Shown here: in pieces, positions 8,301 to 17,763 of the stretch | Layout: each line of letters begins with the position of its first letter | Numbering within the stretch: position 1 is the first letter of the stretch | Source of the DNA: Cohnella panacarvi Gsoil 349 | GTDB lineage: Bacteria > Bacillota > Bacilli > Paenibacillales > Paenibacillaceae | DNA: 64,000 nucleotides | Assembly (NCBI RefSeq): GCF_000515335.1 | Contig: NZ_KI911563.1 | Location: 4,228,735-4,292,734 of the forward strand | Direction of reading: 5' to 3' | Program-made: the position numbers and the translations under genes | Notes under the pieces: generated by a model | Told to the model about the DNA's origin: nothing | Databases searched by the model: none | What the model saw: only the letters and a program-made list of their open reading frames with translations

Positions 8301-10130
8301 GTGGACATCAAGCTTGGAATGGCGGTCCTTCTCCTGATGGCGACGGCGTTGATGATGTTCGTCGCGCTATTGTGTTATCGAAACCGGCATCTGCCGATGG
8401 CTAAGTCGATCGTATGGACGATGACCGCAGCCTCCTTCTACGCGATCGGATATGCATTCGAGGTACTCGGCAGTACGTTGGGCGAAGTGAAGCTGGCGCT
8501 GCAGATCGAATACGTCGGCATCCCGTTCGTCTCGACGCTATGGCTGCTGCAGATTATCCAGCTTGCCAATATCGGTGGCCAATACCGCAAGCTGCTGACG
8601 GTCGCGCTGTTCATCGTCCCGACGCTCGTGTTCGTCGTCCATATGACGAACGACTGGCACGGGCTGTATTTTACGCAGTACGAGCTCAACTTGAACGGAA
8701 CGATACCGCTTTACGACACGGTCAAAGGCCCTTGGTACACCGTGCACGGGTTGTACAGTTACTTGGTCATGTTCTTCGGCATGGCGCTGTTCATTCCGAT
8801 GTATATTCAAGCGCTGCCGAACGTGCGCAAGCAGATCGTCATTCTATTCCTGGGAGCCATCGCGCCGATGCTCTTCAATATGGCGCTCTGGTTCGGCGTA
8901 ACCGTCGACCTGACGCCGTTCGGCTTCGCGATTACCGGCATCACGTACGCTTGGGGCGTGCTGCGCTTCAACCTGCTGCGGCTGACGCCGCTCGCGCTCG
9001 CCAAAGTATTCGAGACGATCGGCGACGGCGTCGTGCTGCTCGATTCGGACGAACGAATCGTCAACTATAACCAAGCCGCCGAAGCCGTGCTGCCCGAGCT
9101 AAGCTTGATGCGGAAGCAAGCGAACGCCGCGAGCGAGGTGCTGTCGGCCAAGCCGGAGCTGATCGCCCGACTTCGCGCGGCGAGCAGCGGAGACGAGCGG
9201 TTTCCGATTGAAACGCAGGAAGCGAACGGTAGACGATATTACAGTTGCAGCTTGTCGTTCCTCTACGATTCGACGAACGAGCCGATCGGCAAGCTGCTCA
9301 TTCTTAGCGATATTACCGAATTGAAAGAGAATGAAGCGAGGCTGCGCGAGAACGCCCGCCAGTTGTCGGAGCTGAACGCGTTCAAGGACAAGCTGTTCAC
9401 CGTCGTGGCGCACGATATTCGCGATCCGATCGCGCTTCTCGTCAGCTTGACCGAGCTGCTCGGAGACGAGATCGCGGCTGCGGACAACGGGCAGGCGGAG
9501 CTGGTCCGGGAGCTTCGGGCGCAAGTGCAGAGCACGTTTCACTTGGTCGATAACTTGCTGGATTGGTACCGGAGCCAGAAGGGCAAGGTTTCTTTCCGCC
9601 CGGTCAGTTGGAATTTGCGGCAAGTCGTCCGTCAGGCGATGTCGCTTGCGGGTAAGAGAGCCGACATGAAGCGAATCGGAATGATAGAGCGCATCGACGA
9701 GAAGCTGTCGGTCTTCGCCGACAAAGAGATGCTCGAGTTGATTCTCCGCAACCTCCTCTCGAATGCGATCAAATATACCGGAATCGGCGGCAGCATCGAG
9801 ATCGAGGCCTTTCCGGGCCAAGCGTCGGTCACCGTGTCGGTCCGCGATAACGGAGTCGGCATGGATGAGGCCACGATGGAGCTGCTTCGTACGGAGGAGC
9901 CGTTCTTCAAGCTGCCGATGTTCGAAGACGAGTCGGGAGACGCGAGATTCGGCCTTGTGCTTACCCGCGAATTCGTGCGCATTCACGGCGGTCGGCTTTG
10001 GTTCGAGAGCGCGCCCGGCGCAGGTACGACCTTCTCGTTCACCTTGCCGGCCTCGGCGGGCGTCCGGGAACCGAGCGACACGAACGGAACGGAGGCGATG
10101 GCGACTGAAAACGATCTTGGTGGACGATGA
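8301..10130 (+). CDS. 7TM-type sensor histidine kinase with PAS domain
   Basis: Encodes 609 residues. The N-terminal 230 residues form about seven membrane helices of the His-kinase N-terminal 7TM type (for example 'GVLRFNLLRLTPLALAKVFE' at the exit). A PAS domain (about 235-350) has 'IGDGVVLLDSDERIVNYNQAAE'. HisKA has 'VVAHDIRDPIALLVSL' with His371. HATPase_c has 'LILRNLLSNAIKYTG' and a shortened catalytic loop 'DARFGLVLTREFVRIHGG', in which the last G box is degenerate. GGAGGATCGGCA precedes the GTG start. The next gene, a receiver-BTAD regulator, overlaps its 3' end, so they are a pair. The 7TM-PAS arrangement is shared with the hybrid kinase at 13160, suggesting a duplicated sensor type. 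Confidence 0.9.
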   Translation: MDIKLGMAVLLLMATALMMFVALLCYRNRHLPMAKSIVWTMTAASFYAIGYAFEVLGSTLGEVKLALQIEYVGIPFVSTLWLLQIIQLANIGGQYRKLLTVALFIVPTLVFVVHMTNDWHGLYFTQYELNLNGTIPLYDTVKGPWYTVHGLYSYLVMFFGMALFIPMYIQALPNVRKQIVILFLGAIAPMLFNMALWFGVTVDLTPFGFAITGITYAWGVLRFNLLRLTPLALAKVFETIGDGVVLLDSDERIVNYNQAAEAVLPELSLMRKQANAASEVLSAKPELIARLRAASSGDERFPIETQEANGRRYYSCSLSFLYDSTNEPIGKLLILSDITELKENEARLRENARQLSELNAFKDKLFTVVAHDIRDPIALLVSLTELLGDEIAAADNGQAELVRELRAQVQSTFHLVDNLLDWYRSQKGKVSFRPVSWNLRQVVRQAMSLAGKRADMKRIGMIERIDEKLSVFADKEMLELILRNLLSNAIKYTGIGGSIEIEAFPGQASVTVSVRDNGVGMDEATMELLRTEEPFFKLPMFEDESGDARFGLVLTREFVRIHGGRLWFESAPGAGTTFSFTLPASAGVREPSDTNGTEAMATENDLGGR

Positions 10131-11244
10131 GCCGGCGATGCATCTGATATTGCGCAAAATGCTCGCCAAGCTGCCCGGCATACAAGTGGCCGGCGCTTTC
10201 CGGGACGCGGAGTCGGCGCTGGCTTATTTGCGCGTGAACCCGGAGATCGGCTTGGTGTTCGCGGACATCTCGATGCAAGGAGAGAACGGGCTGATGTTCG
10301 CGGCTAAGCTGGAGGCGCTGGAGTTGCCCGTGCAGGTCGTGTTCGTCACCTCCCATAAGGAATTCGCCTTGGAAGCGTACGATCTGACCGTTCTCGATTA
10401 TTTGGTGAAGCCCGTGTCCCAGGAACGGCTGGCGCGGACGGTACAGCGGGCGTTAACCTATTACCAGGCCAAGAAATCCGCCCAAGAAGCGAACGCGGCA
10501 CCTACCGAGTTCGTCGTAACGGCGCTCGGAGACATGACCGTGAGCAACGGAACGAGCCGGATCAAATGGATTTCGCGGAAATGTACGGAGCTGTTCGCCT
10601 ACTTGCTTCTCTATCGAGGCAAACGCATTCCCCGCTCGAGGCTGCTCGCCGATATTTTCGGAGACTCGGAGCAGTCGGCGGGGGCTGTCAATTACTTGAA
10701 TACGACGGTGTACCAATTGCGCAAATCGCTCGAATCGCTCGGCGTGCAGGGCGCGATCCGTTCGGAGAACGACGGCTACGCGCTGGACTGGAAGGAGCCC
10801 GTCATCGATTTCGCCGATTTCGAGCGAGAAGTCGAAGCATTGCCGAATATCGACGCAAGCAACATCGACCGAGCGATCCAGACGGAGCGGCGATATACGG
10901 GCGAGTTGTTCGGTGATAAAGCGTACGTATGGGCGACGAGCGAAACGGAGCGTTATGCGGGACTGTACGCTTCGTTCGCCCAGAGGCTTGCCCTTGCGCA
11001 TCTACGGCAAGGAGATCCGGGGGCCGCGTCGAAGCTGTTGCTTAAGCTGAATCAGCACGATCCGTTCGACGAATCGGTCGTCCGTCAGCTCATCGCGATT
11101 CGGAATCAGCAAGGAGACCGCAAAGGGATGAGCGATCTCTATCGCGATTACGTCAAGCTGCTCGATCAAGAGCTGGGCATTCGTCCGTCCGAGGAACTGA
11201 CTCGGTGTTACGAATCCTTCTCTACGTCGCCCGATGATGTCTAG
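10105..11244 (+). CDS. Receiver-wHTH-BTAD (SARP-like) response regulator
   Basis: Encodes about 379 residues. The receiver domain (1-115) has DDE (7-9), Asp54 in 'VFADISMQGENG' and Lys in 'LDYLVKPV'. A winged helix (about 140-225) with 'CTELFAYLLLYRGKRIPRSRLLADIF' and a bacterial transcriptional activation domain (about 235-375) with 'ERYAGLYASFAQRLALAHLRQG' and 'LGIRPSEELTRCYESF' follow. No ATG, GTG or TTG start keeps the first beta strand of the receiver; the only fitting start is CTG 10105, seven bases after GGAGGCG, overlapping the kinase gene by 26 bases. TTG 10117 would delete 'LKTI'. CTG starts are rare but used. A terminator follows at 11277. Confidence 0.88.
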   Translation: MKTILVDDEPAMHLILRKMLAKLPGIQVAGAFRDAESALAYLRVNPEIGLVFADISMQGENGLMFAAKLEALELPVQVVFVTSHKEFALEAYDLTVLDYLVKPVSQERLARTVQRALTYYQAKKSAQEANAAPTEFVVTALGDMTVSNGTSRIKWISRKCTELFAYLLLYRGKRIPRSRLLADIFGDSEQSAGAVNYLNTTVYQLRKSLESLGVQGAIRSENDGYALDWKEPVIDFADFEREVEALPNIDASNIDRAIQTERRYTGELFGDKAYVWATSETERYAGLYASFAQRLALAHLRQGDPGAASKLLLKLNQHDPFDESVVRQLIAIRNQQGDRKGMSDLYRDYVKLLDQELGIRPSEELTRCYESFSTSPDDV

Positions 11245-11535: not shown

Positions 11536-12914
11536 GATCAAGTCCAAAATTGTGTGTAAAATCCTCTGCTTAAAAGTTAACCGATACGGATGACGTTACT
11601 AGCAGGGTTTGGTGCTGTTTTCTTCCATTCGTAATACTCATCCATGTTGAAATAGCGCCGGCCGCTTGTCCACTTTTCCTCGTACTCCATCAGGACTGCG
11701 CCTAGTAGGCGAATAACAGATTCCCGGTTAGGAAAGATCCGTATCACACTCTCCCTCCGCCGGATTTCGGCATTTAAACGCTCCACGCCATTCGTGGTTC
11801 TTAGCCGAATTCGGTACGCTTCAGGATATACAATAATAGCTGTAGCATCGTCAAAACCGCTCTCCAGCGTCTCCATCGCTTTAGCTGCTTTGCTCGAATA
11901 CGCCTCTAGGGTCTGCTTCAGATACTGTCGAGCAGTCTCTAGATCGGGCGCTTCAAATATCGATCGGACACGGCCTTTAATCTCGGTCTTCAGTGCTTTC
12001 GGCGCTGCGTCTAGAACGTTGCGGATGAAGTGCATTTGGCATCTCTGCCACGTTATACCTTGGAAATGTTGCCTTACAGCGCGTACAAGGCCGCCATGGT
12101 GATCACTAACCACTAACTCGACACCACGAAGCCCGCGAGCCTTAAGCGAGCTAAAGAACTCGCTCCAGCTTGCCTCGCTTTCGGTGTCACCGAGCATGAG
12201 GCCCAAAATCTCACGTTGCCCGTCCTTGTTTACGCCATAGCCAATCATGACGCCACGGGAACGAACCCGCCCATCTTCACGCACTTTAACGAACATGGCG
12301 TCGACCGAGATAAACGGGTAGGAAGTTTCATGAAGCGGCCGGTTATTCCAGCTGCTTACGATAGGATCCAGTTGTTTGCAGAGCTCGCTCACTGTCGATT
12401 TAGAAAACTCGGCTCCGCACAATTCTTCCGTAATCGTGGTTACTTTGCGTGTGGATACGCCGTTAATCACCATTTCCATAAGAGAGAGCATCAAAGCTTG
12501 TTCGCTTCTTTGATACCGGGCGAAAAGCTCCGTAGAGAAGCTGCCGTCCCTAAGCCGAGGTACATGCAGTGTAATGCTTCCTACACGAGTCGTTAGTTTA
12601 CGAGGATAAGTCCCATTGCGGTATCCCGTCCTTTCGTCGGATCGCTCATACTTATCTGCTCCTGCCTGCTCAGCTACTTGTGCTTGGAGAACCTGGTTTA
12701 ACACGGATTCCAACAAACCATTCACCCCAGAATCTTGTCCTTTTCCTAAAAACAGTTGATGCAACAATGCCGTATCTACGGTAATCTGATACTGAGTCAT
12801 AAATAAAAATCCTCCTCTAAAATGGGTCTCGACAACTTTCATTTTAAGAGAGGAATTTATTTATGGCTCTCCTTTTTTAGGACAACCATTTTACACAATT
12901 ATATGGACTTAACT
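11536..12914 (-). mobile_element. Complete IS256-family insertion sequence
   Basis: The 1379-base element encodes one transposase on the minus strand. Both flanks carry the same eight bases CGCCGAAA (11528-11535 and 12915-12922), the size expected for an IS256-family target duplication. Inside them, the ends are imperfect inverted repeats: AAGTCC, ATTGTGT and TAAAAT appear in the same order on each inner end with one to three base offsets. Intact ends, target duplication and reading frame suggest recent transposition. Confidence 0.88.
11577..12800 (-). CDS. IS256-family transposase
   Basis: Encodes 407 residues from MTQYQITVDTALLHQLF. Mutator-type transposase features are present: 'ERTGYRNGTYPRKLTTRVG' near the N-terminus, the first catalytic Asp in 'FISVDAMFVKVR', the second in 'ELVVSDHHGGLVRAV', 'WQRCQMHFIRNVLD', and the catalytic Glu region 'TTNGVERLNAEIRRRE'. 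The ATG at 12800 has AGAGGAGGA upstream; an in-frame extension to 12842 reaches into the end region and is less likely. No frameshift or stop is visible, so it should be active. It cuts and re-inserts the element through a DDE mechanism. Confidence 0.95.
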   Translation of the reverse strand: MTQYQITVDTALLHQLFLGKGQDSGVNGLLESVLNQVLQAQVAEQAGADKYERSDERTGYRNGTYPRKLTTRVGSITLHVPRLRDGSFSTELFARYQRSEQALMLSLMEMVINGVSTRKVTTITEELCGAEFSKSTVSELCKQLDPIVSSWNNRPLHETSYPFISVDAMFVKVREDGRVRSRGVMIGYGVNKDGQREILGLMLGDTESEASWSEFFSSLKARGLRGVELVVSDHHGGLVRAVRQHFQGITWQRCQMHFIRNVLDAAPKALKTEIKGRVRSIFEAPDLETARQYLKQTLEAYSSKAAKAMETLESGFDDATAIIVYPEAYRIRLRTTNGVERLNAEIRRRESVIRIFPNRESVIRLLGAVLMEYEEKWTSGRRYFNMDEYYEWKKTAPNPASNVIRIG

Positions 12915-12922
12915 CGCCGAAA

Positions 12923-13159
12923 CCATCGGAGCTAGTCATTTGCCACCAAATAGCTGCACTTCGTACCTTTTACAGGTCAAGGAGTATCCCGTCCATTGTA
13001 ATGCCTGCATTCTATGCAGTTAGTGCCGAGTGATGACGTTGCGTTTTAGGTTAGTATCGATCAGTAAAAGACGGCGATTCTTTCATTATTCTTTTATTCG
13101 CGTTTAGTAGACTATAAGAATAATGTTCGAGCATGTCGATATGCCGAAGGTGGGGTATC
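12923..13159. other. Intergenic stretch with possible diverged repeat
   Basis: No gene is visible. At 12951-13027 there is a pattern of TGCACTTCGTAC, then about 40 bases, then TGCATTCTATGCAGTTA, which recalls the intergenic repeat at 11436 but in a strongly diverged form. The 3' part contains the AAGGTGGGG ribosome binding site that fixes the hybrid kinase start. Confidence 0.35.
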
Positions 13160-16100
13160 GTGGTCAATATTACGGTTGCGGCCATTCTGTCCGGCGCATT
13201 GCTGATAACCCTGTTTCTTGCCGTCTTTACGTTGTTGTACTGCCAAAGCTCCAAAAAGACGTATTTTATTCTACTGTCCGTATCCGTCTTTCTCTTCGTG
13301 CTCGGTTACTTGTTGGAGGTTACGGCATCGTCCTCGGATGGCGGCATGGCGGCTACGAAGGTCATGTATATGGGTTCCGCGTTCTTCTCTCCGCTGTTTC
13401 TTCTGTTCGTGGCGGACTACTGCGAAGCGCGGATTTCAAAGCCGCTCATTCTCATCCCGCTCTTGTCGATCCCCTCCTTCGTGATCGTGCTCGTCTGGAC
13501 ATCCGAGTATCAGACTCTCATTTATTCCGCTTACACCTATATCTCGGACGCGCCGATTCATCGTCTGGCAATGGAACCGGGGAAGCTGTACTATCTGAAT
13601 CATGTTTTCGCATTGTTGTGCATGATCGCGGCAGGCGGAATATTGATTCACAGATTGATTCATTGGGGGAAGCGTTACAGATTACAGCTATTGCTCTTGG
13701 TCATTGGGGTCATCACGCCGGTCCTCGCCAATATTCTGTACGTAGTGAAGCTGAACGTGTACGGCATCAACTACACGCCGGTGTCCCTCGTCCTATTAAA
13801 CCTGCTTTTCTTTATCAATATCATCCGGTACGACATCTTCGATATCCTGCCCCAAGCATCCGCAATGGCGTTGAATTCCATCCGAGAAGCGTTCGTGCTG
13901 ATCGATAAAGATATGCTGTTCGTAAGCGCCAACCCGGCTGCTTATCGGGTAATGCCGGGTTTATCCCACCATCACAAGGGCCGCGAAATAACGGAGATCG
14001 GCGAGTGGCCGCAGGAACTGACCCGGCTGACCGATCATAGGAATGCGGATATACGGTTTTCCGTCAAGACCGATACCGAGCGGTTTTACGGGGCCAGCGT
14101 CAGCGCCGTCTTCACGGAGAAGAAGGAGATGGCAGGCTGGATCATTCTCATTCAGGATAGAACGCTCAACGAGGAGAACGTCGCCTTGCAGCGGTTGGAC
14201 AAGCTCAAAGACGATTTCCTCGCCAATACGTCTCACGAGCTGCGCACGCCGCTGCACGGCATTATCGGCATCGCCGAATCGCTCTCGGCCGGCGCGGCCG
14301 GCCCGCTGCCCGAACGAGCGTTGAATCACATCGCGATGATCGGCGCCAGCGGCAAGCGGCTGGCATCGCTTGTCGACGACATTCTCGATTTCTCGAAACT
14401 GCGGCACGAGGAAATCGCGCTGCGGCGCCAAGCGGTCGATATGCATCAGAGCGTCGAAGTGGTGACGACGGTGCTGAGGCCTTTGTGGCAGGCGAAGTCG
14501 CTGCGGTTGGACAATAAAATGCCGGAGAACTGCTACGTGGATGGCGACGAAGGGCGCATTCACCAAGTTCTGTATAATCTCATCGGCAACGCGATCAAAT
14601 TTACGGCGGAAGGGTCAATCGAGGTAACGGCGGAACGTACGACGCTCGGGTGGATCGTCCGCGTCGCGGACACCGGCATCGGGATTGCGCCGGAGCAGCA
14701 ACCGTTCATATTCGATTCGTTCGCGCAGGGAAGCGGTTCGATCGCGAGGGATTACGGCGGCACCGGCCTCGGGCTGTCGATATCGAAGAAGCTGGTCGAG
14801 CTGCAAGGCGGCAGCCTCGCCGTCTCTTCGGTCGTCGGAGAGGGATCGACATTCTCGTTCGAGCTTCCGGCCGCGGAATTGCCGCAGGAATCGGGTTCGA
14901 CGGCAAGCCTCCCCGCCGAAGGGAGCTGGCGGATGCCGTTGATCGAGGAGAAGCTTGCGGCGGAAGCGCAAGAAGAGATTACGGCGATCGTTCAGGCGGA
15001 TAACGCCGTTGCAGCCGCCCGAGACGACTCGGGTTCGGACAGGTTCTCGGCGACGTCGCAAGCCTGTATTCTCGTAGTCGACGACGAACCTATCAATCTG
15101 CAAGTGCTTGACAGTTTTCTGACGATGGAAGGTTACCGCGTCGTCCAAGCGTCCGGCGCGTTCCAGGCGCTGGCGCTGATCCAGGACGGACTCCGGCCGG
15201 ATCTGATTCTGCTTGACGTGATGATGCCGCGCATGTCCGGGTACGAGCTGTGTCAGAAGCTGCGCTCGGACTATGCTTCGCGCAGCCGGTTGCCGATCCT
15301 GCTATTGACGGCGCGAGGCTTGACTGCGGACTTGGTCGAAGGCTTCAGCTCCGGCGCCAACGATTATCTTAGCAAGCCGATCTCGCGGCATGAGCTGCTC
15401 GCGCGGGTCAAGCTGCATTTGCAGTTGGCGCAATGGAACAGCTCGCTAGAGAACGAATTGTTGCAGCGCACGCTCGCGATTCGCAATCTGCTGGACGAGG
15501 CGGGGCAAGGGTTCCTGTCGTTCGCCGAGGATATGCTTGTCATGCCGGAATACAGCGTCGAGTGCGAGCGCATATTCGGGGCGGAGTTGACCGGGCAGCC
15601 GTTCGCTCCTCTGATTTATCCGGCGGATCTGACCGATCGGCGGTTTCTGGAGGAACTGCTGATGCAGATCATTCGCGAGCAGGACGAACTGCAGGTCGCC
15701 GTGCTGCTCTCGCTGCTGCCCGTCGAAGTCGAGATCAAGGGCAAGCATGTGGAGTTGCAGTATAAGAAATTGGGCGGCGAAGCCAGATTGCCCGGCCGTA
15801 TCATGGTGATTATGACCGATATAAGCGGCCGGCGCGAGCTTGAGATGACCATGGAGCGAGAGCGGCGCATGCTGCGGATGGTCGTGCGCGTCGTGGTGCA
15901 CGGTGCGATGTTCAAGGAATTGACCGAGGAATATCGGCGATTCGCGGCTTCCGGCATTCGCGAGATTCTTGCGAAGGATACGGCGATGGAAGACCGGATC
16001 GACGAGATGATGCGCGATGTACATACGCTCAAGGGCAATTTCGCCCAGCTTGACTTTATAGAAGTGGTCGAGAAGCTGCACGCGTTCGAATCGCAGTTGC

Positions 16101-16966
16101 TGGAATGGCGCAAGCGAATGGAGGGAGGAAGCGAAGATATATTGGCGGCTAAAGTTTTCGCCGAATGGGTGACGGAAATCGATTACGCCGATTGGTTGGA
16201 AGCGGATATGCAGGTGTTGCGCGAGACGCTCGGCGATCCATTCGCCGACGAGACCGATACGGTCGCCGTGAGGAAGACGAAGCTGCTCCAGCTCCAGCGC
16301 AAGGTTGAAGAGTCGTTCCCCGCCTCTGAGGGGGCTTGGATCGTCGAAGAGCTGAAGCGGCTCCATTATAAGCCGTTCCGCGACCTGTTGGCGATCTATC
16401 CGGACTACGTCCAGCGGCTGGCTGCCAAGCTCGGCAAGTCGGTGTATCCCGTAGCCGTCATCGGCGGACAATTCACGGTCGATCACGAACGGTATTTACC
16501 GCTTGCCCGCGCGCTTAGCCACGTGTTCGCCAACATGGTCGACCATGGCATCGAGACGCCGGAGGATCGCGCCTCGATCGGCAAGGACACGTTCGGCAAG
16601 ATATCTTGCCGAATCGACATGAGCGACGGGCGGGTGACGATCGCGATTGCGAATGACGGCAGCGTCATCGATACGGCGGACATCCGGCGCGTCGCGCTTA
16701 ACCGAGGGCTGGCGACCGCCTCGGATTTCGATGAGGCCAGCCGCGCCGAGCAGCTCCGTTATCTGTTCCACGAGTCGTTCTCGACGAAACGGACCGTCAG
16801 CCGCGTATCCGGACGCGGCTTCGGCTTGAGCGCGGTAAAGCATGCGATAGATGCGTTGCAAGGCGACTATGCCGTCGTAAGCGACGTCGAACAAGGAACG
16901 ATATTCCGGTTTTCGATGCCGATTCCATTATTTCAATTCCAGGGAGGCGAGAACCCATGGCCATGA
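13160..16966 (+). CDS. Hybrid 7TM histidine kinase with C-terminal CheA-like module
   Basis: About 1268 residues from GTG 13160, which AAGGTGGGG precedes directly; ATG 13133 has no such site. Order of parts: seven membrane helices (1-230), PAS (235-335), HisKA with His359 in 'NTSHELRTPLHG', HATPase ('YNLIGNAIKFTAEG', 'GGTGLGLSISKK'; 455-575), a receiver with Asp686 in 'LILLDVMMP' and 'DYLSKPI', a PAS-like linker (755-900), an HPt domain with His955 in 'DVHTLKGNFAQLDF', and a second ATPase domain of CheA type: 'LSHVFANMVDHGIETPEDR' (about 1118) and 'GRGFGLSAVKHAIDALQG' near the end. It overlaps the CheY-like gene by 10 bases. A phosphorelay from kinase to receiver to HPt is possible; the second ATPase may phosphorylate the HPt as in CheA. 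The ATPase-HPt order is inverted relative to no-P1 hybrids but matches CheA (P1 first). Confidence 0.9.
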   Translation: MVNITVAAILSGALLITLFLAVFTLLYCQSSKKTYFILLSVSVFLFVLGYLLEVTASSSDGGMAATKVMYMGSAFFSPLFLLFVADYCEARISKPLILIPLLSIPSFVIVLVWTSEYQTLIYSAYTYISDAPIHRLAMEPGKLYYLNHVFALLCMIAAGGILIHRLIHWGKRYRLQLLLLVIGVITPVLANILYVVKLNVYGINYTPVSLVLLNLLFFINIIRYDIFDILPQASAMALNSIREAFVLIDKDMLFVSANPAAYRVMPGLSHHHKGREITEIGEWPQELTRLTDHRNADIRFSVKTDTERFYGASVSAVFTEKKEMAGWIILIQDRTLNEENVALQRLDKLKDDFLANTSHELRTPLHGIIGIAESLSAGAAGPLPERALNHIAMIGASGKRLASLVDDILDFSKLRHEEIALRRQAVDMHQSVEVVTTVLRPLWQAKSLRLDNKMPENCYVDGDEGRIHQVLYNLIGNAIKFTAEGSIEVTAERTTLGWIVRVADTGIGIAPEQQPFIFDSFAQGSGSIARDYGGTGLGLSISKKLVELQGGSLAVSSVVGEGSTFSFELPAAELPQESGSTASLPAEGSWRMPLIEEKLAAEAQEEITAIVQADNAVAAARDDSGSDRFSATSQACILVVDDEPINLQVLDSFLTMEGYRVVQASGAFQALALIQDGLRPDLILLDVMMPRMSGYELCQKLRSDYASRSRLPILLLTARGLTADLVEGFSSGANDYLSKPISRHELLARVKLHLQLAQWNSSLENELLQRTLAIRNLLDEAGQGFLSFAEDMLVMPEYSVECERIFGAELTGQPFAPLIYPADLTDRRFLEELLMQIIREQDELQVAVLLSLLPVEVEIKGKHVELQYKKLGGEARLPGRIMVIMTDISGRRELEMTMERERRMLRMVVRVVVHGAMFKELTEEYRRFAASGIREILAKDTAMEDRIDEMMRDVHTLKGNFAQLDFIEVVEKLHAFESQLLEWRKRMEGGSEDILAAKVFAEWVTEIDYADWLEADMQVLRETLGDPFADETDTVAVRKTKLLQLQRKVEESFPASEGAWIVEELKRLHYKPFRDLLAIYPDYVQRLAAKLGKSVYPVAVIGGQFTVDHERYLPLARALSHVFANMVDHGIETPEDRASIGKDTFGKISCRIDMSDGRVTIAIANDGSVIDTADIRRVALNRGLATASDFDEASRAEQLRYLFHESFSTKRTVSRVSGRGFGLSAVKHAIDALQGDYAVVSDVEQGTIFRFSMPIPLFQFQGGENPWP

Positions 16967-17763
16967 TTATGATAGTCGACGATTCTTCGATTATAAGACG
17001 AAGCCTGCGCGAAATTCTCGAAGAGAGCGGACACGAGGTGGTGGCCGAAGCGCAGAATGGCGAAGAGGCGCTTGAATTGTACCGCAGCCACAGAATCGAT
17101 CTGGTGACGATGGACATTCAGATGCCCGGCAAAAGCGGTATAGAAGCGGTGCGGACGATCAAAGCTTTCGATCCGGAGGCGCGCATCGTGATGATCAGCT
17201 CGGTCGAGCAGCGCAACTTGATCTACGAGGCGATTAAGCTCGGCGCAAAGCATTATATCATTAAGCCGTTTACGAGAGAGAAAGTGGACGAGGTCATGAA
17301 GTCCATTCTGCCCGAGTCGTTGATTGCCGTTCCGGCGGCGAAAGAGACTCAGGCTGCGAGGGACCCCGAACCGGATACGGGGGCTGCCAAAACCAAATCC
17401 AAGACTGTGTATGAGAAAATCGTCGATCCTCAAGCGATCGGCTTGCCGTTCGACGTCAGCATGGAGAGCGGGAAAATCATCTTTACGCTGTACAAGTACG
17501 TAACGGAGCATACGCTGCCGTATTTGGCAGGGTGTCTGCAAGGGTTGTTGCACATTTACAACGCCAAATACGTGATCGTGCTGGAAAAAGTATCGGTGTC
17601 GCAGGACGCCGCGCTGCAGCCGTTCATCGACTTCATCCGCATCGTGCTCAGCCGCAGAGGCACGGTCGCCGTCGTCGCCGAAGAGAACAATCAGTATGTT
17701 GTTCTGAAATCGAAGCTGAATACCGAAGTGTACAGGTCCGTGAAGGAGATCAGTTGGTATTAA
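16957..17763 (+). CDS. CheY-like response regulator with unknown C-terminal domain
   Basis: Encodes 268 residues. The receiver (1-118) has DDS (8-10), Asp53 in 'LVTMDIQMPGKSG', and 'GAKHYIIKPF'. After a charged linker (120-150) comes a domain of about 110 residues, 'IGLPFDVSMESGKIIFTLYKYVTEH' then 'YVIVLEKVSVSQDAALQPFIDFIRI' and 'GTVAVVAEENNQYVVLKSKL'. Its alternation of strands and helices recalls STAS or anti-anti-sigma folds, but I cannot confirm this. It has no DNA-binding domain, so its output is probably protein-protein. The 10-base overlap with the hybrid kinase marks it as that kinase's partner. Confidence 0.88.
   Translation: MAMIMIVDDSSIIRRSLREILEESGHEVVAEAQNGEEALELYRSHRIDLVTMDIQMPGKSGIEAVRTIKAFDPEARIVMISSVEQRNLIYEAIKLGAKHYIIKPFTREKVDEVMKSILPESLIAVPAAKETQAARDPEPDTGAAKTKSKTVYEKIVDPQAIGLPFDVSMESGKIIFTLYKYVTEHTLPYLAGCLQGLLHIYNAKYVIVLEKVSVSQDAALQPFIDFIRIVLSRRGTVAVVAEENNQYVVLKSKLNTEVYRSVKEISWY

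Follow-up and report, generated by a model that had tools for sequence, protein, structure and literature searches.

A hybrid kinase of Cohnella panacarvi with a CheA-like module, a degenerate second G1 box and a receiver-STAS partner

CheA joins an HPt domain to a P3/P4-type ATPase, and the available text of a survey gives CheW for 100% of the CheAs and mentions no case in which the ATPase domain is duplicated (Berry et al., PMC10782961). Here we analyse two overlapping genes of Cohnella panacarvi Gsoil 349, P0001 and P0002, in a 64,000-nt stretch of DNA referred to as the window (NZ_KI911563.1, 4,228,735-4,292,734; feature coordinates are window positions, and P0001 and P0002 with their domains are on the plus strand). 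P0001 is a hybrid histidine kinase ending in a CheA-like HPt-ATPase module, and P0002 is a receiver with a predicted STAS domain. The second ATPase of P0001 has lost two residues of its G1 box, as have all other members of one Paenibacillaceae clade. With a probability of about 0.6, we propose that phosphate would run in a linear relay from the HisKA part of P0001 to P0002, the second ATPase being retained as a pseudo-ATPase.

Several described systems resemble parts of this pair, as judged from the available text of the papers cited. R. sphaeroides CheA3, of the CheA type, has retained a dead ATPase next to an active HPt, much as is predicted for P0001; unlike in P0001, which has a HisKA-receiver part fused in cis, the HPt is charged in trans by CheA4 and CheW is kept (PMC10782961). 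The CheA3-CheS3 system of R. centenum also joins a CheA-type and a hybrid HisKA-type kinase through a receiver and has a non-chemotaxis, CheY-like output, but it consists of two proteins with another domain order, in which CheA3 acts on the CheS3 receiver and CheS3 on CheY3 (PMC3868531). Hybrids of the BarA/TorS type share the order HisKA-HATPase-REC-HPt (the NCBIfam matches are below cut-offs), whereas P0001 has a PAS-like domain before the HPt, a CheA-type ATPase after it, and a REC-STAS protein rather than a DNA-binding regulator as output. The antagonists SpoIIAA and RsbV have the STAS fold predicted for P0002, which differs from them in uniting receiver and STAS in one protein and in having no Ser/Thr phosphosite. 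RsfSR likewise couples a two-component signal to STAS-type switching, but there RsfR is a REC-PP2C phosphatase acting on a separate anti-sigma antagonist, RsfB (PMC10950880). In the open-licence PMC literature (mostly titles and abstracts, with subscription journals outside this scope) we found no account of the module family or of its REC-STAS partners; SiaABCD is mentioned in the available text of PMC9239204, and a review of clostridial orphan kinases, whose available text has no mention of HPt or CheA, was set aside as not relevant (PMC11210211).

Architecture of the hybrid kinase

P0001 (1277 aa, 13133..16966) is a single open frame whose likelier start is GTG 13160, which is preceded by AAGGTGG and reproduces the residue numbers of a preliminary description of this locus made from the sequence. 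Residues are numbered here from the long frame at 13133; the GTG start shifts them by 9, so that H368, D695 and H964 become H359, D686 and H955. The order 7TM-PAS-HisKA-HATPase-REC-PAS-HPt-CheA-type HATPase, which the preliminary description had proposed, was confirmed by Pfam and profile matches, and the architecture of P0001 and P0002 is real. A seven-transmembrane (7TM) sensor region (HisKA_7TM, PF16927, E 1.2e-42; residues 22-240, 13196..13852) is followed by a weakly matched PAS-like region (about residues 246-344, 13868..14164; PAS_4 E 0.06 and PAS_9 E 0.12, below cut-offs). Pfam then places HisKA (residues 359-425, 14207..14407) with the phosphosite H368 (14234-14236), a first HATPase_c (residues 471-581, 14543..14875) with an intact G1 box (DTGIG, D513), and an internal receiver (Response_reg, residues 646-760, 15068..15412) with D695 (15215-15217).

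The module itself begins with a PAS-like domain found by sequence comparison (residues 772-912, 15446..15868). Its HPt region, drawn from profile matches (residues 911-1037, 15863..16243), carries H964 (16022-16024) within HTLKG; the Hpt model at residues 946-1005 scored 24.4 bits in a Pfam scan of P0001, just below the cut-off of 24.6, and 28.6 bits, above cut-off, at the same place in a genome search. The second ATPase (residues 1069-1263, 16337..16921) is of the CheA P3/P4 type, since a profile of ten modules matched T. maritima CheA (4xiv) at E 1.6e-54 through profile positions 249-487; the CheA-like HPt/ATPase module of the preliminary description thus stands. The motifs NMVDHGIETPEDR and GRGFGLSAVKHAI quoted there are present.

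With HisKA, HATPase, REC and HPt in one chain and all phosphosites intact, P0001 is a hybrid phosphorelay kinase. The module shares with CheA an HPt with a phosphorylatable His, the P3/P4-type ATPase fold, a CheY-like partner gene and, in many of its relatives, CheX; fusions of CheA with CheC/CheX are reported in Leptospirae in the available text of PMC10782961. P0001 differs from CheA in having a sensor and a HisKA kinase in the same chain, in lacking the D-x-G-x-G form of the G1 box, and in lacking the CheW (P5) domain, of which Pfam found none in P0001 at E up to 1, as had been described. Because CheW is universal and ATPase duplication unreported among the CheAs in the available survey text (PMC10782961), the PAS-HPt-ATPase module is not a CheA, though it is CheA-like in its HPt-CheY-CheX logic.

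The second G1 box and the clade that lost it

In P0001 the G1 box of the second ATPase reads N1174-D-G-S-V1178 (16652..16666), so that compared with D-x-G-x-G both the first Asp and the second Gly are gone, which the preliminary description overlooked. For comparison, 84,980 species genomes were searched; 535 stretches matched two patterns, 439 of them were relatives at tblastn E <=1e-3 (some possibly partial), and the best 80 of these 439 were fetched. Together with the window, a second copy from the same genome and further stretches, and after removal of five duplicates, 86 module proteins were examined. The ATPase alignment and tree (a quick IQ-TREE run, with support from the Shimodaira-Hasegawa-like approximate likelihood ratio test, SH-aLRT, only and without bootstrap) comprise 85 modules, L041 being left out since its ATPase sits in a separate frame.

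In 8 of the 85 modules Asn opens the G1 box and the second Gly is missing too, and the remaining 77 all keep D-x-G-x-G. These eight modules are those of the window, its genome's second copy (L019), P. piri (L042), P. thalictri (L043), P. mesophilus (L044), a Paenibacillaceae metagenome-assembled genome with two (L046 and L047) and Cohnella fermenti (L050); all are Paenibacillaceae and they form one side of a single branch (SH-aLRT 99). The same loss in eight modules on one branch argues against a sequencing slip. As control, 32 canonical CheAs were taken, namely the 30 best loci from 61 drawn Bacillota genomes and two CheAs of C. panacarvi itself: the first Asp is kept in 31 and replaced by Glu in one, and the second Gly is kept in all 32. 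The joint loss therefore occurs in 8/8 modules of the clade, 0/77 other modules and 0/32 CheAs. The sole Glu belongs to a CheA of C. panacarvi (L021:4072-6153, C1:204 kb; EDGKG).

GHKL enzymes usually lose nucleotide binding when Asn replaces the G1 Asp; among the open-licence papers matched, the term for the E. coli CheA D420N work was not found. By the Nei-Gojobori method on a single pair, window versus P. piri, the ratio of nonsynonymous to synonymous substitution rates (dN/dS) was lowest for the HPt (0.14) and the first ATPase (0.15), followed by the second ATPase (0.21) and the receiver (0.23), and highest for the linker (0.81); the second ATPase is, judging from this one pair, still under purifying selection. 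We consider that this domain is constrained and probably cannot hold ATP.

This bears on the proposal in the preliminary description that two ATPases charge one HPt, which would make P0001 a two-input switch with H964 phosphorylated both through the HisKA-receiver relay and directly, as in CheA. Both ATPase domains are indeed present and conserved, the second retains its N, F and G2 boxes, and one CheA of the same genome tolerates Glu at G1; against this stands the joint loss of the first Asp and second Gly in the window and its whole clade, and we regard a two-input switch as unlikely for P0001. Hybrid forms make up 6 of the 85 modules, with L041 in addition, and require five changes on the tree, so that HisKA-receiver parts were gained or lost repeatedly. 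Three hybrids (L036, L067 and L104, from Cohnella and Clostridia) keep an intact second G1 box; hybrids with two intact pockets therefore exist, and two-input logic may hold in these. An ordinary HATPase without ATP-binding residues, or a widespread and already characterised architecture, had been named as grounds against the original proposal: the G1 loss comes close to the first of these, and the module is widespread, its hybrid form less so. In L041 (3676-7686) a hybrid kinase is cut by an in-frame stop between HPt and CheA-type ATPase (1074 + 257 aa), either a natural split or decay.

The receiver-STAS partner and the module family

P0002 (268 aa, 16957..17763) is an open frame that overlaps P0001 by 10 nt. 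Its CheY-like receiver (residues 1-118, 16957..17310; Pfam and alignment) is complete, with D8-D9, D53 (17113-17115), S81 and K103. The preliminary description had seen a receiver with a tail and no DNA-binding domain, and hence a protein-switch output, which agrees with our results; the tail that it left unrecognised (about residues 159-268, 17431..17760) was identified from profile, predicted model and Foldseek matches as a divergent STAS domain. Among 30 tails, STAS was the commonest Pfam match, though a weak one (7/30 at E up to 1, best 0.0011). Against the Protein Data Bank (PDB), a profile of these 30 tails matched SpoIIAA best (E 0.001), then TM1081 and TM1442, and the six distinct PDB sequences up to E 0.1 were five anti-sigma-factor antagonists and one de novo design. 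The AlphaFold2 model of the P0002 tail (mean predicted local distance difference test score, pLDDT, 80; predicted template modelling score, pTM, 0.74) has the order b-b-a-b-a-b-a (b, strand; a, helix) after a short helix. Foldseek gave four matches to this model at E <=0.001 (two 4hyl chains, chain B of the RsbV/RsbW entry 6m36, and SpoIIAA 1h4y), all four from entries of anti-sigma-factor antagonists; lower-ranked matches were RsfB, stressosome, SLC26, MlaB-containing and SiaC entries and a few unrelated ones. Two alignments were compared by hand to place the SpoIIAA Ser site; its column holds Asp in the window and Ser/Thr in 0/30 tails. Taken together, these matches and the loss of Ser/Thr point to a STAS domain of predicted SpoIIAA/RsbV-type fold, the control of which has plausibly moved to the receiver. 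As a query, the window tail matched only its own genome (1/197 family genomes); other tails were found as neighbours of modules. Two genes of the same genome match HATPase_c_2 strongly (C1:964 kb and C1:2331 kb), each adjoined by its own STAS gene.

Proteins with the PAS-HPt-ATPase module make up a CheA-like family that is widespread and lacks CheW. The module was found at E <=1e-30 in 6 of 197 family genomes, C. panacarvi included, and a PAS-HPt profile matched in 18 of 398 phylum genomes, near full length in 13 and through the PAS-like part alone in five; titles of the best 80 stretches name Paenibacillaceae, Clostridia, Negativicutes, Campylobacterota, Calditrichales and a Zixibacteria metagenome-assembled genome. 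A survey of co-occurrence had been suggested for the two genes: a CheY-like gene (>120 bits, <=4 kb, same strand) lies near 66/86 modules, with a gap of <100 bases in 51 of these, and a STAS-like tail occurs in such a neighbour in 29/86, the one at L036 being doubtful. For scale, 81 receiver matches in the 4.77 Mb of the C. panacarvi genome amount to ~0.07 per 8 kb per strand. Seven of the 20 modules without such a neighbour have a receiver in the same protein and eight lie <=1.5 kb from the end of the stretch (four are both), so nine remain. CheX, counted with one phmmer query, accompanies 49/86 modules (38 fused, 11 more as neighbour), and over the module proteins Pfam matched CheX in 34/86, Hpt in 46/86 and HisKA in 7/86. 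Neither half of the 86 relatives had CheW among the 25 Pfam families listed for it (13 and 18 further, rarer families lie outside these lists), and the C-terminal region of a C. panacarvi CheA, as one phmmer query, had no match in the 86 modules.

The sensors vary: [FeFe]-hydrogenase-like domains occur in seven of the 86 modules (Fe_hyd_lg_C matched seven proteins), HAMP in 12 and 7TMR-DISM in eight, with GAF, Cache and CHASE4 in others. In a Thermincola metagenome-assembled genome (L048:4603-7983), N-terminal [FeFe]-hydrogenase-like and Fe-S domains precede the module and a C-terminal CheX, and the neighbouring regulator ends in GGDEF-like sequence. Two module proteins are giants (L059:1501-7974, 2157 aa; L112:1435-7452, 2005 aa). 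Protein kinase and AAA_16 models match two members, unspecified, of the half containing both; if these are the giants, they would be fused Ser/Thr- and His-type kinases.

At three Cohnella loci (L034, L037 and L039) a REC-STAS gene is followed by a class III cyclase, then by a kinase with CheX and a second REC-STAS gene. The cyclase was set aside as a general target: it occurs at six loci (these three, L051, L069 and L108), all with REC-STAS, and is absent at the window. A Sia-like context with SpoIIE phosphatase and DUF6272 was likewise rejected as a rule, since it occurs at 2/86 loci (L036 and L121); at L121 a single 327-aa frame matches both Sia-type queries. The C. panacarvi genome has a Sia-like operon (L020:22-4437, C1:3438.5-3443 kb) of DUF6272, dCache-SpoIIE phosphatase and a GGDEF-HD protein with a PAS-like domain homologous (31%) to the one in the P0001 module; in Cohnella L036 the place of this GGDEF-HD protein, after the phosphatase, is taken by a PAS-HPt-ATPase protein. 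The six peptide patterns of the module had no match in viral contigs, and PADLOC matched only kinase and receiver stretches, which gives no hint of a role in defence.

The two genes form one unit: window and P. piri contig share a single DNA block, 13144-17763, 87.5% identical and ending at the borders of the gene pair. Upstream lies IS256 in the window versus a C39-peptidase ABC transporter in P. piri (L042:637-3684, directly upstream of the module, with two cNMP-binding domains). The window's frame (11577-12842, minus strand), which we take to be an IS256-type transposase, lies between P0001 and an upstream pair (8301-11244) of another 7TM histidine kinase and a receiver-containing regulator, presumably with a SARP/BTAD-type output. 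IS256 was dismissed as the cause of a lost upstream partner, as the upstream gene of P. piri is unrelated and nothing follows from it. In P. mesophilus (L044:3492-5411) a patatin-like protein with one cNMP-binding domain lies directly upstream of the module. Promoter and terminator scans showed no excess over shuffles. The second pair of the genome (L019:4513-10274, C1:2986.5-2992.3 kb) consists of a REC-STAS gene with 46% identity over residues 1-267 and, after it, a 957-aa sensor-PAS-HPt-ATPase protein that is 44% identical in the module and likewise has a degenerate G1 box (NNGKE). Downstream of it lie an OmpR-type regulator and a HisKA kinase.

Phosphoryl flow and its alternatives

In the relay that we prefer, the 7TM-PAS sensor would control the HisKA/HATPase pair, which would phosphorylate H368; from there phosphate would reach the internal receiver (D695), then the HPt (H964) and finally P0002 (D53), whose gene is translationally coupled to that of the kinase. 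Phosphorylation of the P0002 receiver would alter binding of the STAS domain to an anti-sigma factor or another switch partner. The CheA-type ATPase, with ATP binding probably lost, may be kept as a structural or gating pseudo-ATPase that serves dimerisation and the docking of HPt and receivers. As to its evolution, a CheW-less, CheA-like sensor kinase would have lost catalytic power in one Paenibacillaceae clade, and in the branch of P0001 a HisKA-receiver power source would have been fused in front of the module.

Several points weigh against this relay. The second ATPase broadly retains its N, F and G2 boxes, its dN/dS, from the single pair, has not risen to the neutral level, and the HPt histidine persists. 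Replacing Asp by Asn at G1 is conservative, the loss of ATP binding is predicted from sequence alone, and the CheA with Glu shows that the G1 Asp position is not absolute. Five of the eight degenerate modules have no HisKA in cis, which the relay leaves unexplained, so HisKA fusion does not accompany G1 loss every time, and the module tree leaves the order of the two events unset. The P0002 tail alone has no Pfam match, the STAS assignment draws on a single short AlphaFold model together with sequence matches near E 0.001, and no target gene adjoins the pair in the window.

Transfer between HPt and receiver is reversible in known relays, and the HPt with its dead ATPase might mainly work in reverse, drawing phosphate from P0002 and the internal receiver and so resetting the switch. 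No CheX is fused to or beside the window pair, whereas 49/86 modules have one, which would suit such a role, but nothing in the sequence prefers reverse over forward flow, and we consider it improbable. Least probable is charging of the HPt in trans by another kinase, as by CheA4 in R. sphaeroides, with the fused HisKA serving another regulator: the five degenerate modules without HisKA in cis favour it, and three of them (L019, L043 and L044) lie near the conserved OmpR-type regulator and HisKA kinase (between-locus identity 48-53% and 64-66%), at most a hint as the background frequency of that pair is not controlled for, but the HisKA-receiver part is complete in cis in the window and the genome's other full-module copy is degenerate too.

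The linear relay suggests a chemotaxis-like switch given a new power source. For the family as a whole we hold a broader picture tentatively, at somewhat less than even odds: a CheW-less, sensor-fused, CheA-like family in Bacillota and also Campylobacterota would drive CheY-like and REC-STAS switches balanced by CheX, its ATPase would have died in one Paenibacillaceae clade, and the HPt of P0001 would have been wired to the fused HisKA-receiver kinase. If true, this would be a documented case of a pathway that exchanged its phosphoryl source while keeping its output, and of a CheA-type pseudokinase that is conserved. CheW and chemoreceptors define CheA. A large CheW-less family bears on the kinship of chemotaxis kinases with ordinary sensor kinases, and the degenerate clade opens the general question of what a dead CheA-type ATPase still does for its HPt. 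The REC-STAS partners, moreover, would link aspartate phosphorylation directly to a partner-switching fold.

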